This document shows positions 1 through 18,721 of a stretch of DNA of 33,267 bases, one piece after another; within the stretch, counting starts at the first letter, position 1; each line of letters opens with the position of its first letter. Made by a program: the position numbers and the translations under genes. Source of the stretch: a virus. Location of the stretch: the IMG/VR virus record IMGVR_UViG_3300003690_000053, positions 1 through 33,267 of that record. One strand, 5' to 3'. The notes under the pieces were generated by a model, which made no database searches, was not told the DNA's origin, and saw only the letters and a program-made list of their open reading frames with translations.

Positions 1-288
1 GTCAACTGGAATCTTATGCCTATTATCTGTCAGCTCTAATAAATATGAAACTATATCCTTTGAACATACGACTAGCTGAGAATACGAGTATTGATCTCCC
101 TTATTAATCGTCTTAATTCTACCACGCTTTCCGAAAACTGAATCACACCTATCTTGACAAGTCTCGCAAAAATCTATATCTTCTGATGTGATAGAAAACT
201 GATAAGTATTTTTACCATAATAAAGACAACCATCCCCAAGGCATGCACCAGTCAAATAACAAAAATCAGGAAGATTAGCTATGTTCAT
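1..288 (-). CDS. LAGLIDADG homing endonuclease, 5' part (runs off the window)
   Basis: An open frame of 96 codons begins at the ATG at 288 and is still open at position 1, so only the N-terminal part is visible. Residues 11-22 read YLTGACLGDGCL, which fits the first LAGLIDADG helix, with Asp19 as the expected metal-binding acid. The following residues (GKNTYQFSITSED, then a segment ending GKRGRIKTI) resemble the beta-rich part of such enzymes. The gene starts 42 nt after the intrinsic terminator of the capsid operon. A TATAAT on the minus strand at 295-300 lies just before the start and could be a -10 box, though I see no convincing -35. The Shine-Dalgarno (SD) sequence is weak. It is probably a free-standing homing gene and may be linked to the capsid introns next to it. 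The family call is fairly safe; the target is unknown. Confidence 0.72.
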   Translation of the reverse strand, partial: MNIANLPDFCYLTGACLGDGCLYYGKNTYQFSITSEDIDFCETCQDRCDSVFGKRGRIKTINKGDQYSYSQLVVCSKDIVSYLLELTDNRHKIPVD

Positions 289-294
289 ATATTC

Positions 295-300
295 ATTATA
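295..300 (-). promoter_or_regulatory. Possible -10 box before the homing endonuclease gene
   Basis: The minus strand reads TATAAT seven bases upstream of the ATG at 288. No recognisable -35 hexamer lies at the usual distance. The spacing would give an almost leaderless transcript if it were used, so this is only a candidate. Confidence 0.2.
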
Positions 301-329
301 CCAATAATTTAGCACTTATCCTGTGTGCA

Positions 330-2612: not shown

Positions 2613-5600
2613 TTAGATTTTTCCAAACACCTTTTTAAGAGCAAAATCTGGTGTTTCGGTAGCGGCTTCATTTTGTTGGTGCAGTGAAAACAACGAAGAG
2701 AGTTTAGTTTGCAGTTCATCATTTGAATTACGAAGACTACTCTTTTCATTGATAACCAAAGGCTGCTCTAGCCCTCTTGACTCCGTAGGTAGCCCTTTTT
2801 TGCCCTCGCTAGCTTGTTTAGCTATAGCGTTTTGAAAATCTTTAATTTGGGCAGGTTCATATTTAGCGAGTTCTTCGACTTTGGTTTCAAGTTGCGATAC
2901 TTCGATCAAGTCATTTTGAAGCATTTGGGCCGCAACTGAGAAAGCAAGTTTTCTGGACTCTATAAGAACCTCGGGTTTAATATCGCCACTAGCGATAACG
3001 GTGCCTTTATCTCTCGTTTGTTTTTCGGGTCCTATTTCCCCGCCTTCTTCGTGTCCCATCAGAGCATTATCTGCTGGAAGTTCTGGATGATCTTTAGGGG
3101 AAGTAGGTTTATCACCTACTGTTTCTCTTTCGTGTCCCATATGGCTGTCATTTGCTGTTTCTGTATTAGTTGGTGTTTCGGCTGTAAATTCAGGTTCATG
3201 TCCCATAGTGGTATTACCTTTAATGGGTTTAATATCTTCATCATCAGCAACTGGTTTCTTGGGCTCTAATTTTTTATTTTGAGCGTCAAGAATTCTTTGA
3301 GCCATAACAGCTAATCTATTTTTAGCATTGCCATGGCCTCTCATATGGAGTAGTTCAGCTTCAAGGATTTCTTCTTCTGACTGGGCGATATTAGTTTTAC
3401 CAGCGCCTTCATCGCCGCCAGTATATCTAGCATCGCCACCTTCTAGTCCGACCTCATCTTCATGTCCCATAGTACCCTTATCAGATGGGATATGTGGTTG
3501 TGGTTTATCTTGTGGGTTCAGGTCGGAGTCTTCATGTCCCATAAGAGCATTATCTCTGGGGACAGTTGGTGTAGTAGCTGTTGAGACGGCTTCATTTTCA
3601 TGTCCCATTTCACTAGCATGTCCACCATCGGCTGGGTTGCCAGCTGAGTAAGGTTTTGTATTTTCACCATCTTGTACATTTTCTTGCTGTATTTCTTTTT
3701 CGCCAGCTTCTTTTGTTTGAATACCGATTGCCTTGGCAACCTCTGCAAGATCGAGTTGAATATCTTGAGTTTTACCGATACTACCTTGCATATGCATAGC
3801 CTCCTTAAGATCGTATTCACTGCTTGCTTCTGTGTCCTCACCTGTAGCTAGTGCACCGACAGCCTTTCCTATGCCTTCGGCGACTCCTCCAATTGCCTCT
3901 CCTGTGCCTGATGCAATACCTCCCACAGCTTCCGCAGCACCTCCTATAGCACCGGCAGCTCCACGAGCCAAACCTCCGAGCATTGATTTTTCTTCGCCTT
4001 CGCCTTCTACATATTGATCGCCTTCATCTGCGGGATTATCTTTTGGCTCTCCGCATGTTGGGCATTCGTCTTCCATTGGTGCTCCACATTCTGGGCAGCA
4101 ATCACCTGCTGCTGCCATTGGTTTTCCTTCTTCTATGACATCGCCAACATCTTCAATATCTTCAATAGATTCGGCTGGGGGGGCATCGTCGATGACTTCG
4201 CCTTCGCCTGGAACTTCTTCTTCTCCGGGGACTTCTTCGACATCAACATCAACGGCGACTTCATCGCCTGGGCCTAGATCATCGGTAGGATCACTACCTA
4301 ATGCGACATCGGCAGCGGCATCGAACTCAAGCAGAACTTCTTTTGGAATTTCGAGTGTAACCATTTCGCCGCCAACATCGCCAACTTCAACGCTAACATC
4401 TGCGTCTGCGTCTTCGTCTCCCATTTCGTCTCCTACTTCTTCTTCTTCTTCTTCAAACGGATCTACATCCATATCATCGCCCATATCATCGCCCATATCA
4501 TCTTCTTCAACTAATTGGGCGAGTTTATCTGCTAGGATATCTTCTTGTGAAGCCATAGCGATTTTCAGAGCTTCGCAGGCGGCTCCGGCGTCTTTGATAT
4601 TAAGTCCGAGGCGGATTTGGTCTTCGACGCAGCAATCTGAGCCATCATTATCTTCCCAGACTTCTGCGACTTTTATAGCGAGGTTCGAATTATACATACC
4701 TGCTTTACTTAATGAAGCGCACACGCATGGTGCGAGTGATTTACCTTCACAGGGTCCGCTGAGTGCGAGTGCATTTTCGCCAAAGCGTCTTGAGAGTTTT
4801 TCGAGGCAAGTTTCCATTGGGAAATCATTGCCATAGGTATGATATGCTTTTTTATATTGAGCAATCACATCTGATTCATCTTTGCTGGCGATTTTAATAT
4901 TCTTAAGAGATCCTGCTTTCTTCATTTTAAGAATAGTTTCTGTTTTCTTTTGAATATCGAATGCGTCGAATTGTTCTTCAGTAATATCTTGTACTTTAAG
5001 TGCTTTAACGAAGCGTAATTTTGCTCGGTTGCAAGATGGGCAATCGCCATTAGGTGTACGAGGAGTCCATTCCCACTGTGCATATGCCATTTTAGTTTTC
5101 ATATCAGCAGCATAAGACACTTTATAAGATGTGCCTGTATCCAGGCAGTACCAATTACCTTTTCCGAGGGACACAGTATTTGTTTTACCATTTGCGGGGC
5201 TCACTGAACCGATTTTAATTTCAGATTTAGCGAGTTTTTTGATTGATTGGGGTTGCAGGCGGACCATAGCAGCGAGTCCGACATTTTCGGCTCCCACTCC
5301 CATTCCCATATCTCCACCACCGCCCATTTCTGGAAGTTCAAAGCCTTCTCCTTCGCCGAGACCTTCATCTCTTTCTCCACCTTCTTCTGCTTCGGGCGTA
5401 AGATTAGCCCAGCGTGTAACATCGACAGAGACTTTAAACTGCATTTCTGAGCTACAGTTATTACACTTACCTTTACCGGAGACGATATCTACATCGCTAC
5501 TGCCGCAAACCACACAGATTGATCCAGGTGGTTTCGGTTCTAGATCTTCTGTACCTTCGAGTCCTTCTGCTCCTGGTCCAGGAGCAGCTGTAAAGGATTC

Positions 5601-6716
5601 CATTCCTGGAACTTGACCCATAGCGCCTGGAGGAGTTGGCAATGTTGCTCCAGCTCCTGGAGCTTGTGCAGCTCCACCTTGTCCTCCCATTTGTCCGCCC
5701 ACCATTTGGGCTTCTTTATAAGTTTTCTTTTCACCTTTAGCTTCTTTAACGATATCCTCTCGTTTTTTTGCAAGTGAAGAAGTTACCCGAGCTCCTCTAG
5801 CTCCACCGCCTGAAGCAACGCTTGTAGATGTCATAGATCCACCTGTCATATTTTTAGTTTTTTCTCTTCTTTCATGTTGATCATCAAATGGTCCTGCGAA
5901 TTCTTCTGCGAATTCTTCTCCTTCATCTAATGGTCCTATGAGTTCTGCTGCGGCAAGTTCATCTTCATCTGTGAGCATACTTTTATCTTTAAATATACCA
6001 CAGCCTGTTCCGTCAGTTCCGTCAGTTCCGTCAGTTCCGTCAGTTTCGTCAGTTCCTTTGTTCAATCTAATTTCCAAAACAACAGTTTGCGGGTTGCCAT
6101 TATCAGGGCCACCGATCATTTGCTGTCCAAACTTATAAACTGCCTGAGCAAAAGCTTTTTTATCTTTAGGATCTGCTTCAATTTCACTTAAAGCGAATCG
6201 GACTTCATACAGGCCATCTTCCGGTTTATTAATATCCTCGATAGCCTGTTCAAAGGCAGCGAATTTATCAACAGAAACGTTATCGACTTGCGTTTCTGCG
6301 AGTTTTTCTTGTACCAATTCATTAACTTTAGCTATTGCTTTCTTATTACCGAGTGAATATTCGATAGCTTCATAGACATCTTCTACTTTCACGCCATGTG
6401 TGCCATTTTTCGCAACGGAATAGATAAGTGCGTCGAGGTCATTAGGAGTATCTGCGCTTGAAGCCATTTTCTTGAAATAGGAGATATTATGTGTTATATC
6501 ATCAAGTTCTTCTCGCTTATAAGGAAGCGAATGAAGCAATGTCAAGAACGCAACCTTATCACTAGATTTATCATCATTAGCTAATGCAGCTGCTCGTTGC
6601 AATTCTTTTGGAGATTTGCTATATTTAGCGATAGCATCGGAGATAGATTGAGTAGCAATCTTAATAACTTCCTTACTATATCCGGCGCTTGGCGCTTGCC
6701 CAGCGTTTAATACCAT
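2613..6716 (-). CDS. Giant acidic scaffold-like / internal head protein with MGHE repeats
   Basis: A 1367-residue protein I cannot match to a named family. Residues 1-200 are mostly helical. Residues 221-238 are a Thr-Asp-Gly repeat. Residues 340-390 are Gly/Pro-rich. CxxC pairs suggest zinc binding at 401/404 with 418/421, at 559/562, and at 873/874/877 with 885/888. Residues 735-860 are extremely acidic. Residues 911-957 are a Gly/Ala amphipathic stretch. Six MGHE motifs follow at 1037, 1059, 1083, 1171, 1193 and 1220. The last 110 residues are helical and end ALKKVFGKI. The gene lies between protease and capsid, the usual scaffold position, and its start overlaps the protease end by 41 bp. 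The SD is weak. A scaffold or internal head role is inferred from position, acidity and repeats. It could instead be a packaged protein with several zinc modules. Confidence 0.7.
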   Translation of the reverse strand: MVLNAGQAPSAGYSKEVIKIATQSISDAIAKYSKSPKELQRAAALANDDKSSDKVAFLTLLHSLPYKREELDDITHNISYFKKMASSADTPNDLDALIYSVAKNGTHGVKVEDVYEAIEYSLGNKKAIAKVNELVQEKLAETQVDNVSVDKFAAFEQAIEDINKPEDGLYEVRFALSEIEADPKDKKAFAQAVYKFGQQMIGGPDNGNPQTVVLEIRLNKGTDETDGTDGTDGTDGTGCGIFKDKSMLTDEDELAAAELIGPLDEGEEFAEEFAGPFDDQHERREKTKNMTGGSMTSTSVASGGGARGARVTSSLAKKREDIVKEAKGEKKTYKEAQMVGGQMGGQGGAAQAPGAGATLPTPPGAMGQVPGMESFTAAPGPGAEGLEGTEDLEPKPPGSICVVCGSSDVDIVSGKGKCNNCSSEMQFKVSVDVTRWANLTPEAEEGGERDEGLGEGEGFELPEMGGGGDMGMGVGAENVGLAAMVRLQPQSIKKLAKSEIKIGSVSPANGKTNTVSLGKGNWYCLDTGTSYKVSYAADMKTKMAYAQWEWTPRTPNGDCPSCNRAKLRFVKALKVQDITEEQFDAFDIQKKTETILKMKKAGSLKNIKIASKDESDVIAQYKKAYHTYGNDFPMETCLEKLSRRFGENALALSGPCEGKSLAPCVCASLSKAGMYNSNLAIKVAEVWEDNDGSDCCVEDQIRLGLNIKDAGAACEALKIAMASQEDILADKLAQLVEEDDMGDDMGDDMDVDPFEEEEEEVGDEMGDEDADADVSVEVGDVGGEMVTLEIPKEVLLEFDAAADVALGSDPTDDLGPGDEVAVDVDVEEVPGEEEVPGEGEVIDDAPPAESIEDIEDVGDVIEEGKPMAAAGDCCPECGAPMEDECPTCGEPKDNPADEGDQYVEGEGEEKSMLGGLARGAAGAIGGAAEAVGGIASGTGEAIGGVAEGIGKAVGALATGEDTEASSEYDLKEAMHMQGSIGKTQDIQLDLAEVAKAIGIQTKEAGEKEIQQENVQDGENTKPYSAGNPADGGHASEMGHENEAVSTATTPTVPRDNALMGHEDSDLNPQDKPQPHIPSDKGTMGHEDEVGLEGGDARYTGGDEGAGKTNIAQSEEEILEAELLHMRGHGNAKNRLAVMAQRILDAQNKKLEPKKPVADDEDIKPIKGNTTMGHEPEFTAETPTNTETANDSHMGHERETVGDKPTSPKDHPELPADNALMGHEEGGEIGPEKQTRDKGTVIASGDIKPEVLIESRKLAFSVAAQMLQNDLIEVSQLETKVEELAKYEPAQIKDFQNAIAKQASEGKKGLPTESRGLEQPLVINEKSSLRNSNDELQTKLSSLFSLHQQNEAATETPDFALKKVFGKI
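3048..3608 (-). repeat. Six MGHE motif repeats in the scaffold-like protein
   Basis: The tetrapeptide MGHE, almost always followed by acidic residues, occurs six times in residues 1037-1223. It is usually preceded by a small or polar residue pair (NALMGHE twice, GTMGHE, TTMGHE, SHMGHE). On the plus strand this appears as repeated tcatgtcccat-like words. Spacing is irregular (22 to 88 residues), so these look like short linear motifs in a disordered tail. Confidence 0.85.
6003..6056 (-). repeat. 9-bp tandem repeat encoding Thr-Asp-Gly
   Basis: GGAACTGAC-type 9-bp units are repeated about six times with one variant unit, encoding residues 221-238 of the scaffold-like protein. It is likely slippage-prone and forms a flexible linker. 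Confidence 0.85.
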
Positions 6717-9700
6717 AGTCTTGATCTTTAAATTGTCCTTCTGTAATAACCTCGGAAGGTCCGACGAAGCGGTGAGTGCTTAAAAGTTCTCTCAGTTGCT
6801 TTTCGGTGATTATTTCTGTCCAATCATCTGGCAATTTAGCACTAGCTAGACGGCTGAAATCTGTCCATTGTTTTTCAGTGATAACTTCTGGCCAATCTTT
6901 CCAACGAGTAACATATCCATCAGTAATAGAATCAAGTTGTCCTTGTGTAATAACGTCATAAGAGCCTCTACGTGTCTGAGGGGACTCGCTAGTTGTGTCA
7001 TCTAGTTCATCAGCGTCTTTTTCACCAGAAATTTCAGCTTCTGTGATTTGTTCCCAAGTTTCATTTGTTCTTGGATGCAAGTCAGCATTTTCTGAGCTAG
7101 AAAGCTGTTTTTCTGTAATCACTTCTTGCTGAGCATCGCTATCGTTAGCTGGATTTCCAACTGCCGCAGTTTTATCTGTTTCTTTAATTGCAGTTTTGTT
7201 TGTTTCTTTAGTTCCTGGCATGACGTTAATTAACTCCTTGTTGGCCAAAATTTCTTTTCCGGCTTTTTCCGGATCACTATCAATCATCTTTTGAATATCT
7301 TCAGGAAAAGTAGACACATTCGCAGAGCGAATAATCTTTTCTCCTTGGGCTTCTATAACCATTGTTCCGTCTGCTGACGTTTTATCAATAACAATGCGAC
7401 GAACTTCTTTGTCGGAAGGATCGCCATCAAACACTTCTATATAAGTTTTAGACACACTAGAGCTCCTAGAGAGTTTATTTGCATTAAGATTCTTAATCTT
7501 ATCCCTTACTTTAGAAGAAGATGCAAATAAATCCTTCTTTTTATTTATGAAATTAGAGGAAAATTTTGGTTTAATTACTGACCCAAGTCCAGACATATCT
7601 TGAATAGATATTCCAGATGGAGTAACTTGAGTAGTTGTAGCACCTATAGGAGGTGGTGCTTGCTGTCCAGGTTGCACTGGTTGAGCTGGTTGAGCATCAG
7701 GAGATTGAGGAGTTGTATCTCCTATAGCTTCAACTGTTGGAGATGGAAGTTGAGCATATCCCATTTCTGAGAGTTCATCAACAATACCTTGAACGTCAGC
7801 CATTGCTTTAACAAGATCGCTAACATATTCCATCGATATCTCATTTTTCTGAGCAAGCATGCTTTTAACGACTTTTTCCATGCCACTCATGCTTTCAGTA
7901 AGATTAGTTAATTCGTCTTGTCCTGCGACCTTCTTTAATTTCGAATCATCATTACCTCTTGTCATTTGTAGTTGAGCAATAGCTTTTTTAAGTTCAGCAA
8001 CCTTTTTGGTAACATTTGGAGCGTGTAAGATATCACATACACCGCATCTATGACATGCAGGGTTAACAACGAAGCTATTTTCAATAAATTTTAGACCGAA
8101 GTTGTGTTCAAAGATTTGTTGTTCTTTATAATGATTTATCTTGCTTTCGCTTCGTTTTTTACCGCAAATGGGACAAGGTTCTTCTCCTGCATCTTCTCCG
8201 TCGTGATATTCACAATTATAATCGCCAGATACTTTACGATTCTTGCGATTTTTAACATGATCACAATATTCATCTGCTGTGGGAGATTTTTTGTGGCAAA
8301 CAGAACAGACAGAATAATCGACAGAACAATTATGAGTAGCAATATCGTTTAATATATAACTATGATCGCTTTCCTCATTATTGAGGCTTCCAACCTGAAT
8401 GTAATAAGTTGGTTCGTCATTCTCTATTATTTCAACTTCTTTGACTCTATGTGCAACATATTTGTCGTAGAAAAATGAATCAAACTTTGACTGCTTAGCT
8501 TTTTTATTTACATTAGCTTTTCTTGATTGACCAGATAATACATCGCTAATAGTATTTGTAAAATAAAGCATGTATTCCACGTATTCGAAATCATTATCAA
8601 TAACAGTTGACGTTGACGCTGAAGCTATGCGCTCATGTCTTGATAAAGTAGCAGGAACACCTAGATTCAAAGATATTTTTCTAACACCCGAAAGCAGATC
8701 ATTTGAAGCCGATGATAACTGCAAAGCTCCTGATTCACTCGATCCTTTTTTAGTTGATCTCTCCTGAACAATACAACCATCGCCATCGAGGTAAGCACCT
8801 AAAAACGTTTTTTGGGTAATAAAAGATTCGTTTCTTAATAAATTAGAAACCTTCTTAACTTTGCTACCAGTGCCAATGTGTTTAAGACAAATTTCGGCTA
8901 GGTCTGGATTCCACGTTGTGATGTATACGCCATTTCTATCAGCAACTTTTCTTTCATGAACATTATTTTCTGGATATCTCTTTTTCAGAGCTTCTTGTAA
9001 TTGGCCTTTAAGTGGATCGTTTAATCCGAAGCTGAAACCAACCGTAGACTGGCTGACCCAACCTTCGGCAGCATATACTCCCAAAATAAATGCTAACTTA
9101 TTATCCAGATTTGCATGATATTCAGAAAAAACATACTTATCCAATATCTCTAAAACATGATCTCCCTCTTTCACAAGACTGGCTTTTATAAAAGCGGGCT
9201 TAACCGTCTTATTAATTTCGGAAATATTTTTTCTATATTTTTTTCCAGATTTCGTTGTATAGTGCAGATCAGAACCTCGTAACACCAAAACAGGATGTTC
9301 GCAGCTTAATGCAAGCCCTGATTTTTTACCACTCCATTTAATATGATAAAGTTGTTTATGATCTTGTGTCTTACAAATGGTGTGAATCTTTTCAATCTTG
9401 CCAGTATGAGTTGCAACTTGATCGCTCTTCTTCAATTCATCAACACGTTTCAACGAAAGATCACCCATTGTTACTAAATCATGTCCACGACTAGCTCCCA
9501 TTGAAGTTCCAGTGCAATATTTTTCCTCTATACTTCTGGCTAATGATGGATATGCAACTTTGTCAATACGGGCGAGAATAAAGATGCCACCTTCTTTATC
9601 ATCATACCAAGAATGGACACATTCGCCCCTTGCATTTTCTACTTCACTATTCTGATGGTTTGTAAAGACAGGAACGCCAATGAAGGTATGAGCTGCTTTT

Positions 9701-9954
9701 TTTAGTTCTGCTTCACAGAAAGCATCACCATTGTCATTAACAATGTCTTTTTCGATAGCAAAGATTTTGACGAAAAGATGATCGGGATACTTATCAATAG
9801 AGGCTTGAATATCGAAACCACCGTACTTGTTTTCTTCTGCTTCTTTGACAGAAGCAGTCTTAATCATTTCTGGCAATACGAATATATCCCAATCTTTGGG
9901 ATGATTCAAAGGTTCTATCGTAAAACTATTAAATGCTATTTTTTTAAATGACAT
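6676..9954 (-). CDS. Prohead protease with an intein and a long repeat-bearing C-terminal tail
   Basis: A 1092-residue precursor; removal of the intein (residues 154-542) would leave 703 residues. The protease domain of the T4 gp21-like type spans 1-153 plus 543-650. The presumed catalytic His100 lies in FTNHQ and Ser151 in CTGTSMG. After the intein the domain resumes CSVDYSVCSVCHKK and holds further Cys pairs (594/597, 634, 637/640) that suggest zinc binding. Residues 650-735 are helical, 735-780 Pro/Gln-rich, and 944-1075 carry six VITEKQ-like repeats. The protease matures head proteins inside the prohead. The long tail suggests that protease and scaffold-binding functions are fused. The N-terminus MSFKKIAF follows an AT-rich sequence with only a weak, distant SD. 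Confidence 0.9.
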   Translation of the reverse strand: MSFKKIAFNSFTIEPLNHPKDWDIFVLPEMIKTASVKEAEENKYGGFDIQASIDKYPDHLFVKIFAIEKDIVNDNGDAFCEAELKKAAHTFIGVPVFTNHQNSEVENARGECVHSWYDDKEGGIFILARIDKVAYPSLARSIEEKYCTGTSMGASRGHDLVTMGDLSLKRVDELKKSDQVATHTGKIEKIHTICKTQDHKQLYHIKWSGKKSGLALSCEHPVLVLRGSDLHYTTKSGKKYRKNISEINKTVKPAFIKASLVKEGDHVLEILDKYVFSEYHANLDNKLAFILGVYAAEGWVSQSTVGFSFGLNDPLKGQLQEALKKRYPENNVHERKVADRNGVYITTWNPDLAEICLKHIGTGSKVKKVSNLLRNESFITQKTFLGAYLDGDGCIVQERSTKKGSSESGALQLSSASNDLLSGVRKISLNLGVPATLSRHERIASASTSTVIDNDFEYVEYMLYFTNTISDVLSGQSRKANVNKKAKQSKFDSFFYDKYVAHRVKEVEIIENDEPTYYIQVGSLNNEESDHSYILNDIATHNCSVDYSVCSVCHKKSPTADEYCDHVKNRKNRKVSGDYNCEYHDGEDAGEEPCPICGKKRSESKINHYKEQQIFEHNFGLKFIENSFVVNPACHRCGVCDILHAPNVTKKVAELKKAIAQLQMTRGNDDSKLKKVAGQDELTNLTESMSGMEKVVKSMLAQKNEISMEYVSDLVKAMADVQGIVDELSEMGYAQLPSPTVEAIGDTTPQSPDAQPAQPVQPGQQAPPPIGATTTQVTPSGISIQDMSGLGSVIKPKFSSNFINKKKDLFASSSKVRDKIKNLNANKLSRSSSVSKTYIEVFDGDPSDKEVRRIVIDKTSADGTMVIEAQGEKIIRSANVSTFPEDIQKMIDSDPEKAGKEILANKELINVMPGTKETNKTAIKETDKTAAVGNPANDSDAQQEVITEKQLSSSENADLHPRTNETWEQITEAEISGEKDADELDDTTSESPQTRRGSYDVITQGQLDSITDGYVTRWKDWPEVITEKQWTDFSRLASAKLPDDWTEIITEKQLRELLSTHRFVGPSEVITEGQFKDQDYGIKRWASAKRRI
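6730..7125 (-). repeat. VITEKQ-type repeats in the protease C-terminal tail
   Basis: Six related motifs occur in residues 944-1075: EVITEKQL, EQITEAEI, DVITQGQL, EVITEKQW, EIITEKQL and EVITEGQF. They are separated by 16-25 variable residues, mostly polar. The regular [DE]-[VIQ]-I-T-[EQ] core followed by a hydrophobic residue looks like an amphipathic binding motif repeated for avidity. Confidence 0.85.
8329..9495 (-). mobile_element. LAGLIDADG intein in the prohead protease (389 aa, Ala1, Cys+1)
   Basis: Residues 154-542 of the protease ORF form an intein. Block A is ASRGHDLVTM, with Ala where Cys or Ser is usual. Block B is SCEHPVLVL with His220. Two LAGLIDADG helices are ILGVYAAEGW (about 290-299) and FLGAYLDGDG (384-393). 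Blocks F and G are TYYIQV and ILNDIATHN, ending in His-Asn followed by Cys+1. Removal joins CTGTSMG to CSVDYSVC. Ala1 with Cys+1 resembles class 2 inteins such as KlbA, where Cys+1 attacks the N-terminal junction directly. The endonuclease acids appear intact. Confidence 0.93.
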
Positions 9955-9968
9955 ATTAATTAACTATC

Positions 9969-10406
9969 CTATGACAAAGAAGGCCATGCGTGAACATTCT
10001 TGCTTCTACATTCGCGATTGGTGCAAGTCGCCTCAGATCCTATAGCAAGCATTCTGTTCAATTCATCCGTAAACACTGTTCCGCAATCTTTACACCTCCA
10101 ATACTTAGGACGCGATTCATTGACATCCTTTTCTTGCACCTGTGCTGTTCTTTTATTTCTTCGCTTTTGCAATGCTTGTGCATACACATGAACTTCATCT
10201 TGATAGAATCCAGCTTTAGGTCCGTTAGGCATAGCCTCTAATGCTGCTTTCGCATCTCGTATACCATATCTCAAAACCTCTTCTGGCTGTTGTTCAGCCC
10301 ATGCTTCAGCAGCAGCAAAGTCAAGAGATACAGTTCCATCTGCAAGGGGTGGCATTTCAAACTTTGCGGAATTTTTTACATAACCTGCCGATTTAATTGT
10401 TTTCAT
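9969..10406 (-). CDS. Leader-family protein with a C-terminal zinc ribbon
   Basis: A 145-residue protein beginning MKTIKSAGYVKN, the leader shared with neighbouring genes. The middle is helical (FAAAEAWAEQQPEEVLRYG, then KAALEAMP). The C-terminal part has four cysteines at 105, 108, 128 and 133 in CKDC and CTNREC, a likely zinc ribbon. It ends 14 nt before the protease start. It is probably a virion or head-assembly protein, judging only from context and the leader. No enzyme signature is visible. Confidence 0.75.
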   Translation of the reverse strand: MKTIKSAGYVKNSAKFEMPPLADGTVSLDFAAAEAWAEQQPEEVLRYGIRDAKAALEAMPNGPKAGFYQDEVHVYAQALQKRRNKRTAQVQEKDVNESRPKYWRCKDCGTVFTDELNRMLAIGSEATCTNRECRSKNVHAWPSLS

Positions 10407-10497: not shown

Positions 10498-10971
10498 CTA
10501 ATATTTGGTCGCTAAATGATTTATAAGAGCCAAGTCAAGATCAGCCCTATACTCAGCCCTATTCAACAACGTAGCTTCTAGTTGAGCAACAGCCTGCTTA
10601 ACCGACGTAACTCCAGAATCCTTAGAAAGGAAAGCTCTTATATCATCTATCGAGGCTTTTGAGGGCAATTTATTCGTGAAGAGGTTCTTAAGACCTTTTA
10701 TTTTGTTTCGGATATCCTCATCAGAGCGTCCTTCTCCTTCATGTAATTTAGCCCTATCAAATGCCTCTTCTACGTTCTCTCTTGTTATGGGTTTGCCATT
10801 AGGCAGGAAGAGCCTACCATCTTTAAAGTCGATATTCCTTCTCTCAATGGCCAACTTAAGCCCTGGACTTAAGTCCTCTACAGTAGTAAGTGGACTTAGT
10901 TGTGCTAACTTGTGAGGGAACTTGAGTTTCCTGCGATTTTTGCTATAGCCTGCTGATTTAATTAATTTCAT
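10498..10971 (-). CDS. Leader-family protein, unknown function
   Basis: A 157-residue protein starting MKLIKSAGYSKNRRKLKFPH, with the shared leader followed by a basic stretch. The rest is mostly helical and charged, with a small hairpin-like segment DGRLFLPNGKPIT and a helical C-terminus rich in Leu and Ala. Its ATG overlaps the end of the upstream ORF by 14 nt, implying translational coupling. No known domain is recognised. Confidence 0.75.
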   Translation of the reverse strand: MKLIKSAGYSKNRRKLKFPHKLAQLSPLTTVEDLSPGLKLAIERRNIDFKDGRLFLPNGKPITRENVEEAFDRAKLHEGEGRSDEDIRNKIKGLKNLFTNKLPSKASIDDIRAFLSKDSGVTSVKQAVAQLEATLLNRAEYRADLDLALINHLATKY

Positions 10972-11311
10972 TCACGCTTGTCCTGTGTTTATGGGCCATA
11001 TCTCTTGCAATCTCAACTAAATTATCAGCTAATTCATTCATTAATTCTGGTGTCATTTGTTCCATATTTTTTGCGAAAAATCTTACGGACAAGGCTACAC
11101 TTTGCAATCTTTCGGCAGGCGTGTCTTTTATACCGGGACTTGGATCATCGTCAGTATTTGGATCAAGCATTTCAGCCTGATCAATAGATTCACCAAGACT
11201 CGGTTCGGCGGGTGGCAGCTTCTGAGATTGCTTCATCCAGTCGTCGTAATCTGCTTTCTGCGGATCATCATGCTCGCCCCATCTAGCATTAAGACTTTGC
11301 TCCCTTGTCAT
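10958..11311 (-). CDS. Downstream half of a leader-family gene split by a 35-bp duplication
   Basis: A 117-residue frame starting MTREQSLNARWGEHDD, without the MKxIKSA leader its neighbours have. Its C-terminal half (PSPGIKDTPAERLQSVAL, then VRFFAKNMEQMTPELMNEL) is closely similar to the 76-residue protein at 11933-12163. Deleting one copy of the adjacent 35-bp repeat fuses it in frame behind the ORF at 11317-11649. It is therefore probably the 3' half of a former gene of about 215 codons. The ATG lies inside the repeat and may allow re-initiation five bases after the upstream stop. Confidence 0.65.
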   Translation of the reverse strand: MTREQSLNARWGEHDDPQKADYDDWMKQSQKLPPAEPSLGESIDQAEMLDPNTDDDPSPGIKDTPAERLQSVALSVRFFAKNMEQMTPELMNELADNLVEIARDMAHKHRTSVNEIN

Positions 11312-11372
11312 TCCTTCTACCCTAATGGCCCATTCACCCTTGTCATTCCTTCTACCCTAATGGCCCATTCAA
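11303..11372. repeat. Perfect 35-bp tandem duplication
   Basis: Two identical 35-bp copies (11303-11337 and 11338-11372) lie head to tail over the junction of two ORFs. The unit length is not a multiple of three, so the duplication shifts the frame and produces the TAG at 11317-11319. Confidence 0.95.
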
Positions 11373-11649
11373 TGGCACTCTTCTCATCAGTAATACCTTC
11401 CTCCTTCAACTCTGCTGCTATCTCAACATCTTCCATAGCCTCATCAATTGTAGTGAGAGAACCACGTCCAACTCTGGGGTTGGCTCTAATAACATCAACA
11501 AGAGGTCGCATTTCTACTAGCAGTTGAGCTTTCTGTTGTTCACTTAATTCATGAGCCCATACTGCTATTTTTCTCATGGGAATAATTTTGTAAAGAAATT
11601 TTTTAAAGTATGTCAATACGTTATATCTTGCTGATTTAATTATTTTCAT
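11317..11649 (-). CDS. Upstream half of a leader-family gene split by a 35-bp duplication
   Basis: A 110-residue frame beginning MKIIKSARYNVLTYFKKF, with the shared leader. A helical segment (HELSEQQKAQLLVEMRPLVD) and an acidic region follow. The last residues VNGPLG are encoded by the second copy of the 35-bp repeat and are probably an artefact of the frameshift. Without the duplication the frame would read ...EWAIRVEGMTREQSLN... and continue for another 116 codons. Function is unknown; it may still be made as a shortened protein. Confidence 0.68.
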   Translation of the reverse strand: MKIIKSARYNVLTYFKKFLYKIIPMRKIAVWAHELSEQQKAQLLVEMRPLVDVIRANPRVGRGSLTTIDEAMEDVEIAAELKEEGITDEKSAIEWAIRVEGMTRVNGPLG

Positions 11650-11656
11650 TTGCTAT

Positions 11657-11932
11657 TTACCCTGTATACCTTACTTTGCCCTGTAGAGAGTCCACATCAT
11701 CTGCCATTCTTATTAAATTGCTTGCCATCTCTCTTAACTGGGCGGCGAATGTAGGACCAGTATCATCTATAGGCTGAAGATCCTTAGGGGTAATTGCTCC
11801 TTCACCATCCCAACCCTCGGGAATCGTGCCTTGACCTTTCTTTGTCCATCCCTGCTCTTTTCCTATCTTCTGCCATTCAGATTTAGATAGTTTTAATTGT
11901 GTTTTACCCGATGCGTTTTTAATTAGTTTCAT
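11657..11932 (-). CDS. Leader-family small protein
   Basis: A 91-residue protein starting MKLIKNASGKTQLKLSKS, a divergent copy of the shared leader. A lysine- and glycine-rich middle (EWQKIGKEQGWTKKGQG) is followed by a C-terminal helical segment (FAAQLREMASNLIRMADDVD). That segment resembles the end of the neighbouring 76-residue protein in layout. The ATG directly follows the TAA of the gene upstream with no spacer. Function is unknown. Confidence 0.75.
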   Translation of the reverse strand: MKLIKNASGKTQLKLSKSEWQKIGKEQGWTKKGQGTIPEGWDGEGAITPKDLQPIDDTGPTFAAQLREMASNLIRMADDVDSLQGKVRYTG

Positions 11933-12163
11933 TTATACTTGTCCTGGAACATTCGTCAATATATCTCTTGCAATAGCCTCTAAATTATCAGCTAATTCAT
12001 TCATTAACTCTGGCGTCATTTTTTGCATATCTTTTGCGAAAAATCTTATGCCCATGGCTATATCTTGCAATTTTGCGGCTGGCGGGTCTTTTATGCCGGA
12101 ACTTGAATCATCAGTAATGTCTTGTGCTGTTTTGTTATAAGATGCTGATTTAATTAGTTTCAT
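11933..12163 (-). CDS. Leader-family small protein, intact paralogue of the split gene
   Basis: I start this 76-residue protein at the ATG at 12163 (MKLIKSASYNKTAQDI). The longer frame from 12211 would put 16 unrelated residues before the conserved leader. The remainder (SSGIKDPPAAKLQDIAMG, then IRFFAKDMQKMTPELMNEL) matches the C-terminal half of the ORF at 10958-11311 almost residue for residue, so the two arose by duplication. It is predicted to be helical. It overlaps the membrane-protein gene upstream by 14 nt. Confidence 0.75.
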   Translation of the reverse strand: MKLIKSASYNKTAQDITDDSSSGIKDPPAAKLQDIAMGIRFFAKDMQKMTPELMNELADNLEAIARDILTNVPGQV

Positions 12164-12536: not shown

Positions 12537-13046
12537 CTAAGCCCCAGTTGCATTCTTTACATAATAGATTTCATCTTCAATACTCCCCCTTACGTGCCTA
12601 GGTATTTTGATATTTGCTAAATCATGAACTGTATAATTAGATACCCCTTTAGGAAAAGGCACTGCCCATCGATCTGCAGCAAAACTTAATGCAGCATGCA
12701 AACTAGAAAAGTATTCTCCTGAGGGAGCATATATTTTCTTCTTCTCGTCTTGTGGTAATCTTTTGATACCGGCAAAGAATTGTTTCTTCAAGTCTTTTGT
12801 TAGTGCAGGACCAACAACAATAAAATAATCACCATTTGTAGTATAGTCGTGCCCCTCCCAACGATGATATGAGCCACTTCCCAATTCTCTATCATAACGC
12901 TTCTTTAATGGCGCAGACTTATCATGATAGAACTCTTCCCATTTGATGCCTCTGTCACGAATGCGTTTTCTGCCCTTCAGACTGCCTTTAGGCGGGGGAA
13001 GGTAATTCCTTGCTTGTTTGTGTTCTTTCAGGTTGAAGCTGGCCAT
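12537..13046 (-). CDS. Unknown protein overlapping the portal 3' end
   Basis: The protein is 169 residues from the ATG at 13046 (MASFNLKEHKQARNYLPPP); the longer frame needs a TTG start. The first 59 nt overlap the end of the portal gene in another frame. A basic N-terminal stretch (KGSLKGRKRIRDRG) is followed by a mixed alpha/beta region with many Tyr, Trp and His (SGSYHRWEGHDYTTNGDYF). The N-terminal FNLKE resembles FNLKKAQ and FNLSKTAQ found in the large ORF at 17081-18721. No family is recognised; it is probably a virion protein by context. Confidence 0.7.
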   Translation of the reverse strand: MASFNLKEHKQARNYLPPPKGSLKGRKRIRDRGIKWEEFYHDKSAPLKKRYDRELGSGSYHRWEGHDYTTNGDYFIVVGPALTKDLKKQFFAGIKRLPQDEKKKIYAPSGEYFSSLHAALSFAADRWAVPFPKGVSNYTVHDLANIKIPRHVRGSIEDEIYYVKNATGA

Positions 13047-16000
13047 TAGTCTCTGGTTCTCCAATTAATATTCGTTTTCCTAGTCCATTATCCAATTCGC
13101 TAACAGAAACAGTAATTGTTTCCTCGTCTCCATTTGCAGCAAATCTAGTTCCAGGCAACTTTAAAGAAGCAAATTTCTCAAATGTCGTATCGTTTTCAGC
13201 TGCCTTCTTAAGATCTTTTGCTGCTTCCGTTATATTTTGCAAGATAACATCTTTAATAGTATCAATGTGTTCTTCAACTGCTTCCTCTTTAAATCTTAAT
13301 ATTCTCCATCCAACATTAGCAAGTTTCTGGTCTCTTTGCATATCTCTTTCTTTTAAATCCTCTCGTTCATGCCACATCTTTCCATCTGTTTCAATGCCTA
13401 TTCCAATTTCAGGATAAGCAAAATCTAAACTAAATGGTTGTTGCTGCCCAGGCAATTTGATAGCATATTGTCCAAACAAGGCAAATGGCACATTTAAACC
13501 ACTTAGGACTTTATACATCTTTTGCTCTATCTTTGTTAGGCGCATAACCCTTGTCGGCACTGGTTCTTGCCCTGCTTGTTCTCTTGCTTTGCCTCTTTTT
13601 GGAATTGCTAATCCTGCATCAGCTGATGCGGCAGCTGGCATGCCACCACCAGGAGGTGCACCCATGCCACCACCAGGAGGTGCACCCATGCCACCACCAG
13701 GAGGTGCACCCATGCCGCCCATTTCAGCTCCCGGCATACCTAGAGGGGCACCTTCTATGCCCATTGCTCCTTCTGCTCCTGGCGGGCCTCCTAATCCTCC
13801 ACCCATTGGCATTCCACCTCCTCCCATTGCACCTTCTGCTCCACCTGCACCGGGCATAATCTGCCCACTTTGCATTGCAACTAGTCGTTCTTCTCGCAAT
13901 CTCTCTTGTTCAATATCATAATCTAGCTCGAACTCTTCACAAATTGTTTGACCAGAAACTAATTCTTTGTCATAAACTTGCATAAGCAATTGCAAATTAC
14001 TAGATTTATCACGAAGCTTAAGATCATTCCATTTTATAGTAGGATATATATATTTAGGTTTTCCTACTATTTTAGATTCTTCTTCATCAATAAATCCTTG
14101 CATCATTGCAATAGGCAAGAATATATGTTTTTCAACCCACTTCGCAAGTTTTGATTGCCATCTTTCTAAACGTTTAATCAAAATCTCAACGCCAACCTGA
14201 GCCGAGGTATAACCGGCCGCTTCGCCATTCAGCAAAGCTTGATTAAGCATAAACCCATCTAATACTTCTTTGCCAATGTTTTCCATCTCGGAAGTAATGT
14301 TGTGAATCTTGCTTGTGGCACCCTCCCAGCTATATTCAAATGCGTGGTGGGTAACAATTGTCATATTAGGATCATTAACAACAGCAGATAATTGACTCTG
14401 GACATTTGAGATATCATCGTCAGAAGCCGGACGATCTTTGTCGCCAACTTTAACAATGCGAACAGGCAATATAAGTCGCTCAGCAGTAATCCAGTTTGCA
14501 GTCATAATTTTAGTTTTATAAGCTAAGATAGTAAACATGCGACGTAGCAATGGACTACTATAAGTTGCATAAGAACTAGCATTATGTTTAATATGGCTTA
14601 CAGAACGATTAGATAGTGGAATAGGTCTGCCAGATGCAACTAAATCAATAAGCTTAGGATCTAGCCTGTCATAAATTTGTTTAGGCTCTCTACGCTGCAC
14701 AAGCATTCTAAGCTCTTCATCAGGCATTAAAGCAAGAACTGGTTCTTTTGCTAGAACATTCGTTTGCACTTCAACATAATCTGGATTCATAAGAACAACA
14801 CGACTAAATGAACCACCTTTATGATTGCATTGTTCTCCTTCTCGATCAGTGCCTGATCCACCACAATGTTCACATTCAATTTCCAAGAAAGGAAATACAT
14901 CGCCTAATAAATAATACTCATGACTTATATGAGCAAGCCAATCTTCCAGATCTAAATCTTCTACAGCTTGCTCAAAATACTTACAAATCTTCTTGCTTCT
15001 AGATTCAAGCTTGAATCCTGAAAGTGGGAAATTCGCGTAAAAATCTACACCTGCTGCAACCTTAGGTTCGTTGTCATACCAGAAGCGGCAATTAGAAGCT
15101 ACATACCCTGATGCAACAAATGCACGTTCAGGATCAATTTGAAGATCATAACCTTTGCCAGTATACTTGAATTCTCTTATTTTCTGTATAGGCTGGGCTA
15201 AATATGTTACTCCATCTTCTTCATAGAAAAATCGAAGCTGACGCTGAGGCTTTGGCTTGAAGCCCTGTGGAATCTTGCTGCTGCGCAAGTAAGGCTGTAA
15301 TTTAGGAACTTCCGAAGACGGAATAATTATTCGATAACACCATTCAGAATCAGTCTCGTAGTGTTCGCCATAAAGTGGCAAACGCTTTAATGAACAGTTT
15401 ATACCTACAGACAATAACATCCAATATAGCTGATCTGCCATATCGCAAGAATAATTGTTAGCAACTAACAACCCCTTTGGTGGAGAAAAATGTCCATCAC
15501 CATCAAAATAACCACCAAGAACATGGAGGCGGGACTCTTTATCTAATTCAAAAACATCAGCACGGAATTTCTTTTTAGTTAATTTACCAGTGATATAAGT
15601 ATCAAAAAATTCCCAGATATCTGTTCCACTTTGAGAAACCCTCCATCCGTTTCCGTCTCCATGCTGAAAAGATCTGGTTTTTCCATCAAAACTATGTTGA
15701 GACCATTTTTCTAATTCTGGCACATGATACTCATTGCGATCCATAGTGAAATCAACACGGCATGAATGCTCTGGTTTTGTTAAACAGCCATCAGCAATAC
15801 ACAGCCCAACCATCCACGCTTTATTTGTATCTAAAGCAATTTTGCCTAATTTAGGCATAGGAGCAATTAGCAAATCGTCTTTGACGATATCTTGTGCTTC
15901 TCTTTTGTATATCAATTTATCTGGAAATTCTATCGGTGGTTTATCGCCGCCTGCGGGTATGCCTATCTTCCTGCGATACGCAGCATCTTTTTCGAGCTTT

Positions 16001-16581
16001 CTTTTATGGCGATAAAGTTTTCCGTCAATGACAAAAATCTTATGTTCTTCAGAAACTTCTAGAGTTCTCCAATAACCATAAGCACTAAAACCAAAGCATC
16101 GCTTGTCTGTGCAACTTCTCTCTGAAAAATGAGGTGGACGACGTAATTTGCCGCTCGCCCCTAACACAGGCTCGGATTTAATGTCTTGATACCACATTCC
16201 ATTCGTTACCGGATCTTTAACAACTTTATCATAATCAAAAAGCAGATCTTCGACACGTTTTGTGGTATAGTCATTTAACGTAAGTCCTGTTCCAGCAAGT
16301 ATTTTCCACTGATAGCTCTCCCTTCTCTTACTTGCGATTTGCCAATTTTGTGGTGTATGCAGAGGCGAGAAGAACATAGGTTGGGTGAAAATAACATTTG
16401 CACCGGAACCGGCGAACTGTGCCATTTTAGTGATTGGTGTATTTGCTACTGTGCCAACAGGAAATTGCTGAGTCATAGGCACATCTTCAGAAACGGTTGG
16501 AGCTACAATTTCACCACCAGCAGCCTTTGTCATCATTGCTCTGGTTTGTTTATCTGGTAAGTTAACTCTGATTGGTGCCAT
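12988..16581 (-). CDS. Portal protein with an intein and a C-terminal Vsr/DUF559-like nuclease domain
   Basis: A 1197-residue precursor; removing the intein (residues 93-497) leaves 792 residues. The portal forms the DNA-entry ring of the head and docks the terminase. Portal sequence covers 1-92 and 498 to about 900, with CRFWYDNEPKVAAGVDFY after the splice site, a Cys/His cluster (C570, C573, C585, H587) and the stem/clip region with GFMLNQALLNGEAAGYTSAQ. Residues 905-985 are a Gly/Met/Pro-rich linker. Residues 1012-1120 are a PD-(D/E)XK domain of the DUF559/Vsr type: LDF with Asp1053, IETDGK with Glu1064, Asp1066 and Lys1068, then RDQKLANVGWRILRF. The last 75 residues are unassigned. The gene lies well downstream of the terminase. 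The portal and nuclease calls are strong; what the nuclease does in a portal is unknown. Confidence 0.92.
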   Translation of the reverse strand: MAPIRVNLPDKQTRAMMTKAAGGEIVAPTVSEDVPMTQQFPVGTVANTPITKMAQFAGSGANVIFTQPMFFSPLHTPQNWQIASKRRESYQWKILAGTGLTLNDYTTKRVEDLLFDYDKVVKDPVTNGMWYQDIKSEPVLGASGKLRRPPHFSERSCTDKRCFGFSAYGYWRTLEVSEEHKIFVIDGKLYRHKRKLEKDAAYRRKIGIPAGGDKPPIEFPDKLIYKREAQDIVKDDLLIAPMPKLGKIALDTNKAWMVGLCIADGCLTKPEHSCRVDFTMDRNEYHVPELEKWSQHSFDGKTRSFQHGDGNGWRVSQSGTDIWEFFDTYITGKLTKKKFRADVFELDKESRLHVLGGYFDGDGHFSPPKGLLVANNYSCDMADQLYWMLLSVGINCSLKRLPLYGEHYETDSEWCYRIIIPSSEVPKLQPYLRSSKIPQGFKPKPQRQLRFFYEEDGVTYLAQPIQKIREFKYTGKGYDLQIDPERAFVASGYVASNCRFWYDNEPKVAAGVDFYANFPLSGFKLESRSKKICKYFEQAVEDLDLEDWLAHISHEYYLLGDVFPFLEIECEHCGGSGTDREGEQCNHKGGSFSRVVLMNPDYVEVQTNVLAKEPVLALMPDEELRMLVQRREPKQIYDRLDPKLIDLVASGRPIPLSNRSVSHIKHNASSYATYSSPLLRRMFTILAYKTKIMTANWITAERLILPVRIVKVGDKDRPASDDDISNVQSQLSAVVNDPNMTIVTHHAFEYSWEGATSKIHNITSEMENIGKEVLDGFMLNQALLNGEAAGYTSAQVGVEILIKRLERWQSKLAKWVEKHIFLPIAMMQGFIDEEESKIVGKPKYIYPTIKWNDLKLRDKSSNLQLLMQVYDKELVSGQTICEEFELDYDIEQERLREERLVAMQSGQIMPGAGGAEGAMGGGGMPMGGGLGGPPGAEGAMGIEGAPLGMPGAEMGGMGAPPGGGMGAPPGGGMGAPPGGGMPAAASADAGLAIPKRGKAREQAGQEPVPTRVMRLTKIEQKMYKVLSGLNVPFALFGQYAIKLPGQQQPFSLDFAYPEIGIGIETDGKMWHEREDLKERDMQRDQKLANVGWRILRFKEEAVEEHIDTIKDVILQNITEAAKDLKKAAENDTTFEKFASLKLPGTRFAANGDEETITVSVSELDNGLGKRILIGEPETNGQLQPERTQTSKELPSPA
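13640..13711 (-). repeat. 24-bp tandem repeat (three copies) in the portal linker
   Basis: Three perfect copies of a 24-bp unit encode GMGAPPGG-type repeats inside the flexible linker that separates the portal body from the nuclease domain. The wider linker is also Gly/Met/Pro-rich. Confidence 0.93.
15091..16305 (-). mobile_element. LAGLIDADG intein in the portal protein (405 aa, Lys1, Cys+1)
   Basis: Residues 93-497 of the portal ORF. Block A is KILAGTGLTL, which aligns without gaps to the protease intein start, placing Lys at position 1. Block B is VSEEHKIFV with His180. LAGLIDADG helices are MVGLCIADGC (about 257-266) and VLGGYFDGDG (354-363). Blocks F and G are GYDLQI and FVASGYVASN, so the penultimate residue is Ser instead of His, followed by Cys+1. 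Removal joins RESYQW to CRFWYDNE. Homing endonuclease acids are present. A Lys1 intein is unusual; splicing would have to proceed by direct attack of Cys+1. Confidence 0.9.
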
Positions 16582-17080: not shown

Positions 17081-18721
17081 TTAGCTCACTTTTTTTTTTG
17101 AAGCTTCTTTGGCTTGTGCGTCTTGAGACGCAAAAGCACCGGGATCCGTCCTTATTTGCCTCACCTCGTCCTGCCGTTTCTTTATATCCTTTTCTTCCTT
17201 TAATTCGATTATTTCTTCCTTTTTCAAATCATCTAACTCTTTATGAGACCAACCTTGGTCCATTAGCTCTTGCTCATCAGGAATTGACAATGGAGTCTCT
17301 AATTCTTTGGGCGACATATACTGAAGCTTAGTCTTCACAGCTTTGAGATCATGTTCAAGCTCTTGCACTTTTTCTTGCAAGCTTGTCTCGGGACTTCCAT
17401 CAACAGTGGTCGTAGATGGAAAACCAATTGCTGTTTTTACATTAGATTCTTTACTTGCTTCATGCCAATTAAAAGGTTTTGAGGTATCGGGATTAGGGCC
17501 ATAGCCTCTATCATCTTTAGCTCTATTTGCTTGCAAACGAGCTTCTGTAACTCCATATTCAGGGAGACGTGGTTTGCGTCTTTGACCTGGTTTCAGTTGC
17601 ATATTGTTAGCCTCTGGAATCCATTTATCGACTTCAAATCGTTTTTGGACATAACCGCCGACCCAATTACCATCTTTGTCGCGGTAAGGACGTGAATATT
17701 TGTCCATGATATTACCGCGCCAGATAGCTTCATAGTCGATATTCCATACATCATCGAGAGTAAGTCCAAACCCTTTATTGCGTTCAACCACATGCCAATC
17801 GGACACTGGTTGTCTATAGAAGGGGTCGAAGCGCTTTTCATTTGGCCCCCACAGGAAGGCATTATCGATAGTTTTTTGTTGTGCTGTTTTGCTCAGATTA
17901 AAGCTTTTCTTTGCTTGTAGCTTTCGAGCTGCTTTTTCAGCTAATGCTTTTATTTCTCGATTTGAACTTTCTATAATTTTTTTATACATTTCGGATCCAA
18001 AAGTTGTATAAGGAGCTTCAATCCCACCTTGGTCATGTCTGACTAGTTCGAATATTTTTCCAGCTACTAGTTGTTTATTTGCTTCTAGGTCTCCCTCGCC
18101 TATCGCCACGCCTTCTGGAAAATATTCTTTTAGTAGTACATCTATATACTGCCAGGTATTTTTTCTTTCTCCGTCTACAACTGTCTCTGCCTTGTTATCT
18201 ATATTTTCTACTAGCCCATCACGGGCCACCATTTGTGGATTGTTATTTGACATTGCTATTTCATCAAGCCATTGCTTTAAAGACATTGGGTCTTTAAAAT
18301 GCAGATGCTGTTCTTCTGCTAGTTGTGGTTCGTTTACTGGTTCTTGATCAAAGCCTGTTAATCCTCCTTGTTCGACTGGTTGATTTGCGCCATATGGGTC
18401 ATCTGGCGTTGCAGGATTAAAAACTTGTGCTTTTTTTAGATTAAACATTTTTGTTTTAGCCGCTCTCTGTAGCTGATCATTATTTTCGCTAAGTTCTTTA
18501 GTTAAATCGACATATTCTTTCACAACTTCTGCTTGATCGACAATACCGCTTTGCATTTCCGCTAAGTCATCTAAAATCTGTTTATTTCTTATAGATAACT
18601 GCTCGTTTCGGCTCGATTGCTCTAATAGTGCATCTATTTGATCTACAGTAATACCATGCTTATCTGCCAATTGAAGCTTTGATTGTACATCATTTAGTTC
18701 TGCCAATGGAGTATCTGGCAT
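17081..18721 (-). CDS. Large probable virion protein, unknown family
   Basis: The protein has 546 residues, starting at an ATG directly after the TAA of the upstream gene. Residues 1-90 are a likely coiled coil (LQLADKHGITVDQIDALLEQ onward). Two FNL-K-type motifs occur: MFNLKKAQVFNP near 92 and SFNLSKTAQQKT near 283. Residues 290-420 are rich in Trp, Tyr, Arg and Pro (WRGNIMDKYSRPYRDKDGNW). The C-terminus is a second charged coiled coil ending ASKKKVS. No enzymatic motif is seen. Its place upstream of the portal suggests a head or neck component or an ejected protein. Confidence 0.75.
   Translation of the reverse strand: MPDTPLAELNDVQSKLQLADKHGITVDQIDALLEQSSRNEQLSIRNKQILDDLAEMQSGIVDQAEVVKEYVDLTKELSENNDQLQRAAKTKMFNLKKAQVFNPATPDDPYGANQPVEQGGLTGFDQEPVNEPQLAEEQHLHFKDPMSLKQWLDEIAMSNNNPQMVARDGLVENIDNKAETVVDGERKNTWQYIDVLLKEYFPEGVAIGEGDLEANKQLVAGKIFELVRHDQGGIEAPYTTFGSEMYKKIIESSNREIKALAEKAARKLQAKKSFNLSKTAQQKTIDNAFLWGPNEKRFDPFYRQPVSDWHVVERNKGFGLTLDDVWNIDYEAIWRGNIMDKYSRPYRDKDGNWVGGYVQKRFEVDKWIPEANNMQLKPGQRRKPRLPEYGVTEARLQANRAKDDRGYGPNPDTSKPFNWHEASKESNVKTAIGFPSTTTVDGSPETSLQEKVQELEHDLKAVKTKLQYMSPKELETPLSIPDEQELMDQGWSHKELDDLKKEEIIELKEEKDIKKRQDEVRQIRTDPGAFASQDAQAKEASKKKVS

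Follow-up and report, generated by a model that had tools for sequence, protein, structure and literature searches.

An exact 35-bp tandem duplication splits a small leader-bearing gene in a contig related to Bacillus phage G

The internal proteins of bacteriophage T4 have only a capsid targeting sequence in common (PMC3012670, PMC7411985). According to the passages of PMC9503650 that deal with packed ADP-ribosyltransferases, such enzymes are thought to be carried in the heads of many myoviruses and phage G encodes at least ten of them; a leader of the kind reported below is not described in those passages. The window analyzed here is a virus record of 33,267 bases, and its matches to terminase, portal and major capsid proteins indicate that it derives from a giant tailed phage related to Bacillus phage G (Donellivirus gee). 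Phage G is the closest cultured relative found, with a major capsid protein that is 50% identical and a portal that is 34% identical. A tandem duplication divides one gene into two ORFs in a block of short ORFs that has the portal gene (12988-16581) on one side and the head-protease gene (6676-9954) on the other. The portal ORF (12988-16581, minus strand) contains an intein-like insert that matches an endonuclease, its C-terminal domain is likewise endonuclease-like (phrog_559, phrog_503), and a search of genome_contigs with the portal gave no match.

The repeat occupies positions 11302-11371 and consists of two adjacent 35-bp copies that are 100% identical over its maximal extent. Base 11372 falls outside, leaving exactly 2.0 copies and hence no microhomology at the endpoints. 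An exact tandem copy of this length is far beyond chance. The initial annotation of this DNA had already recognized a perfect, adjacent 35-bp duplication, though its position was given one base off, as 11303-11372. The split gene, the duplication and the paralogue comprise the following elements.

11302-11336, no strand assigned: copy 1 of the 35-bp duplication, which holds the ATG of the 117-aa ORF
11337-11371, no strand assigned: copy 2 of the 35-bp duplication, an in-frame part of the 110-aa ORF
11309-11319, minus strand: TAG AAGGA ATG junction, with the stop of the 110-aa ORF and the start of the 117-aa ORF 5 nt on
11317-11649, minus strand: 110-aa ORF, N-terminal half of the split gene, with leader and homology to contig L004
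11623-11649, minus strand: leader MKIIKSARY, common to adjacent unrelated ORFs
10958-11311, minus strand: 117-aa ORF, leaderless C-terminal half of the split gene, with a C-terminal helical pair
10998-11149, minus strand: paralogous segment, 85% identical in DNA to 11961-12112 inside the 76-aa ORF
11933-12163, minus strand: 76-aa paralogue, in which the leader is fused directly to the helical segment

Thirty-five base pairs do not make a whole number of codons, and the frame breaks when two copies are present. The two-copy sequence thus contains two minus-strand ORFs of 110 and 117 aa, with the limits first reported for them, and the computed one-copy sequence is a single ORF of 218 aa that stays open through ...AIRVEGMTREQSLN... 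This agrees with the original proposal that deletion of one copy fuses both ORFs in frame, to give a protein with the leader at its N-terminus and the paralogous helical segment at its C-terminus; the one-copy ORF has both. If the second copy was made by duplication, it follows directly that the ancestral sequence held a single copy and hence a single gene; no further assumption is needed. The paralogy of the C-terminal half with the 76-aa ORF was likewise correctly noted at the outset. The two segments differ by 5 synonymous and 18 non-synonymous changes, a pattern that looks close to neutral. AlphaFold2 places helices at residues 65-84 and 88-116 of the 117-aa ORF, and these are the better supported parts of a model with low overall confidence (pLDDT 64). 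Searches of Pfam and PHROGs gave no significant match for the small ORFs, and the "family leader" and "family helix" of the initial annotation have no annotation in either collection.

The junction itself could be read as a functional fission, in which ribosomes terminate at the TAG, start again at the ATG 5 nt downstream and produce a tagged 110-aa protein and a separate 117-aa protein. The TAG-AAGGA-ATG layout is suggestive, adjacent genes abut tightly or overlap, and the 117-aa ORF is open, with a conserved paralogue of its C-terminal half. However, this layout is the mechanical outcome of the duplication, and the purine-rich stretch within 11309-11319 has zero spacing to the ATG. The copies have not diverged, which leaves no time for selection to have acted, and the leaderless half would be without the family tag. 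We consider functional fission quite unlikely.

Viral contigs, species genomes and 50 related records were searched for the split gene, and its sole detectable homologue lies on contig L004. Neither half found a close relative in viral_contigs, nor did the one-copy protein in genome_contigs. Against the 50 whole related records the one-copy protein matched the L004 contig alone, and a search of viral_contigs with the conserved core as a two-row alignment again returned only that contig. No homologue was found in L020, the closest relative by portal (86%), and none was seen in phage G. The L004 homologue is a 70-aa ORF (match at 12971-13120) that starts with MKIIYSA and aligns to residues 36-80 at 58% over 45 aa. 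For this N-terminal part, dN/dS between L004 and the window is about 0.16 (dS about 1.5), which indicates that it was formerly under selection. The second half survives in L004 as a short remnant, GEDDDPQ (GEHDDPQ in the window), in the -1 frame relative to the first segment and with no ATG, GTG or TTG start seen upstream in its own frame. Measured between two anchors, the window gene in its one-copy form is 100 nt longer than L004, a shortfall of about 100 bases that disrupts the frame in L004. The 35-bp repeat is missing from L004, and the gene that follows the homologue has an in-frame stop. Both known copies of the split gene are therefore broken, by different routes. Relatives with two separate ORFs and no repeat had been named in advance as the observation that would speak against a single ancestral gene. 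In L004, which has no repeat, the two segments do occupy different frames; the second, however, is a brief remnant with no start codon seen upstream, and it marks a broken gene and not a pair of working ORFs.

The segments of L004 and those of the two-copy window share the same relative frame (-1), a coincidence with an even chance for two disrupted copies. If it were more than that, the gene could be a two-frame one by design, expressed through a programmed -1 shift or as overlapping genes, and the in-frame join of the one-copy form would be incidental. As such a design would allow, the 135-nt difference in spacing between L004 and the two-copy window is divisible by three. On the other hand, inspection by eye identified no X-XXY-YYZ slippery site in either overlap, and the C-terminal part of L004 is the remnant described above. 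Moreover, the window copies are identical, whereas the N-terminal parts have reached the dS given above, so the duplication is younger than the split between the two lineages. A two-frame design is accordingly very improbable.

To place the duplication among its relatives, exact tandem duplications with units of 15-150 bp were collected from the window together with 127 related loci, about 2.1 Mb of DNA when overlaps are counted. The unit is divisible by three in 81 of the 85 duplications recovered, and among the four non-triplet ones only the 35-bp duplication of the window was flagged as lying within an open frame. Frame-breaking duplications are thus rare in this phage group, which is what selection against them would produce. 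In related contigs the rate of frame breaks is about 0.016 per kb, and exact tandem duplications longer than 5 bp were absent from all the other break sites examined. The window contig has 2 supported breaks in 23 kb against 0.37 expected (P about 0.05, for a comparison chosen post hoc), which suggests a marginal, weak excess over the relatives. An ORF of the protease region is also broken in a 476-kb record (L128, 5419-5422), at a site with no tandem repeat.

These data bear on the phase-variation switch offered in the initial annotation, in which slippage would add or remove one 35-bp unit and so toggle the 218-aa protein. Two perfect direct copies are able to revert, the unit lies within a reading frame and is not divisible by three, as an on/off switch would require, and the gene is one of a variable set that may interact with the host. 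Yet the exact 35-bp unit has 0 matches in the 2.9 million contigs of viral_contigs, and neither there nor in L004 was an allele with another repeat number found. There are only two copies, the homologue in L004 is free of the repeat, the open frames of relatives hold no other non-triplet exact tandem repeat, and a second, unrelated frame-breaking duplication is present in a head gene of the same contig. We do not retain the switch, which we judge highly unlikely.

That second frame break lies 4.6 kb from the first. It is listed here with its neighbors and with a homopolymer difference elsewhere in the contig.

6684-6698, no strand assigned: exact tandem duplication of a 7-bp unit, GGCGCTT x2 (2.14 copies), which separates the protease ORF from the next ORF
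6676-9954, minus strand: head-protease ORF with an intein-like insert, one ORF with its neighbor in relatives
2613-6716, minus strand: 1367-aa ORF, joined to the protease in related loci
17090-17099, minus strand: A10 run (T10 on the plus strand), one base short of the A11 of L020

The protease and the 1367-aa ORF form a single ORF in 79 related loci (47 contig groups), and alignment of 6684-6698 to L020 and L004 identifies a 7-nt insertion in the window. No Shine-Dalgarno-like site was found at the start of the 1367-aa ORF. In 33 kb, exact 7-base tandem repeats readily arise by chance, and the window has three, although the one at 6684-6698 coincides with that insertion. Phage G, unlike the 79 loci with their fused ORF, has a gene for the protease alone (gp19, 300 aa); a split by the 7-bp duplication is thus not necessarily lethal and could be tolerated. 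The ORFs that flank 17090-17099 correspond to one 691-aa ORF in L020, and the A10/A11 difference is a candidate indel error, mutation or slippage site.

Two group I introns (Rfam RF00028, above the gathering score) are located on the minus strand at 957-1186 and 500-782, with scores of 61 and 105 bits. The former interrupts the major capsid gene, the C-terminal part of which is found at 773-919, so the frame break in that gene is due to an intron, unlike the duplications. An intron was also considered as the cause of the split in the small gene and ruled out, as the Rfam introns lie only near the capsid gene. At the end of the contig, an open-ended ORF (1-315, minus strand) includes the LAGLIDADG-like text GACLGDGCLY and probably encodes a homing endonuclease or intein.

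Taken together, the 35-bp duplication is probably a private, non-functional and very recent event in this contig. The gene would previously have been a single 218-aa one, in the variable block of small leader-tagged genes of the portal-protease interval. A very recent doubling of the 35-bp segment would then have shifted the frame and split the gene into an N-terminal half with the leader and a C-terminal half without it. Exact, private, frame-breaking copies are compatible with both remaining proposals of the initial annotation, a very recent mutation and an assembly error. That the second copy was made in assembly has close to an even chance; contig ends with a short unmerged overlap might, for example, have been set end to end. 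Units of 35 and 7 are below the k-mer sizes usual in assemblers. The artefact is slightly favored, since a single contig contains both frame-breaking tandem copies and since the 7-bp copy interrupts a head gene that 47 contig groups have intact and leaves its second part without a ribosome site. The window contig contains zero N, so no scaffold gap marks a join, which counts against an artefact. The alternative, a genuine and recent mutation that abolishes the function of a dispensable and rapidly evolving gene, is possible, if somewhat doubtful. We infer both the choice between artefact and mutation and the dispensability of the gene. A literature search on false duplications and frameshifted viral contigs returned nothing specific. 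The case serves mainly as a warning: in a contig with a homopolymer difference as well as two tandem copies of non-triplet length, split ORFs are poor biological evidence.

The leader on the 110-aa ORF is shared more widely. Small and otherwise unrelated ORFs near the split gene have the common leader MK-I-I-K-T/S-A-x-Y, and the shorter form MK-x-I-K-S/N-A starts five ORFs of the block: 11317-11649, 11933-12163 and the three listed here.

11657-11932, minus strand: 91-aa leader ORF with the extended leader GKTQLKLSKSEWQKIGKEQGW
10498-10971, minus strand: 157-aa leader ORF, the start of which overlaps the end of the 117-aa ORF
9969-10406, minus strand: 145-aa leader ORF with a homologue in L020

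The pattern M[KR]x[IVL][KR]xA occurs at 34 of 3060 first ATGs (ORFs of at least 60 aa) and 6 of 16683 internal ATGs (Fisher p 4e-22); the leader is position-specific, at ORF starts. A DNA pattern for it gave 22 matches in the 50 whole records, and a permuted pattern gave 3. Several relatives have leader ORFs either between portal and protease or downstream of the capsid gene, and in L007, L009 and L028 the protease itself begins with MKR-I/V-KTAS. A 523-aa ORF of L020 (9809-11377) begins with the extended leader and repeats it near the end, which suggests a fusion of cassettes. In phage G (NC_023719; loci L136-L146), a related leader, [M/V/L]KRL[I/V/M]K[K/A], heads 11 ORFs on one strand and 0 on the other, and control patterns gave 0 matches. 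These 11 ORFs have differing bodies and are scattered over the genome. Above the Pfam cut-off they match nucleoside deoxyribosyltransferase-like, SLOG, GNAT and ParB N-terminal domains, and two PARP-like matches fall below it.

The leader resembles the T4 capsid-targeting sequence and may mark proteins for packing into the head; the 11 phage G ORFs, several of them enzyme-like, are candidate head-packed proteins. We tentatively suggest, at somewhat less than an even chance, that the split gene belongs to a wide leader-tagged cargo set of phage-G-like giant phages, in which the tag would direct a variety of small proteins and enzymes to the prohead, to be delivered along with the DNA. The tag would take the form MK-I-I-K-T/S-A-x-Y in the metagenomic relatives and KRL-I-K-K/A in phage G. 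Cassettes of such a set would often be duplicated, fused or broken, and the 35-bp duplication would be one such event caught at birth. The tag matters more than the duplication. It occurs on unrelated proteins of cultured phage G as well as of several uncultured relatives, and would predict which unknown genes of giant phages are head-packed and delivered to the host.

As a short tandem-duplication frameshift, real or made in assembly, the event conforms to type: the copies are exact, adjacent and non-triplet, they break an ORF, and they occur in one contig only. It differs in having a similar second event nearby. In the comparison with T4 IPI-IPIII and Alt, the leader sequence is a different one, the phage G leader genes are spread genome-wide, and packaging, cleavage and ejection are putative here. 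The likeness lies in small, variable, mostly unrelated proteins that have a short N-terminal leader alone in common, as found here, and in the position of the leader genes of the window beside the portal and head protease. Finally, T4 Alt is an ADP-ribosyltransferase, and the leader genes of phage G include PARP-like candidates for this class of enzyme, which is treated for phage G in the passages of PMC9503650 cited above.
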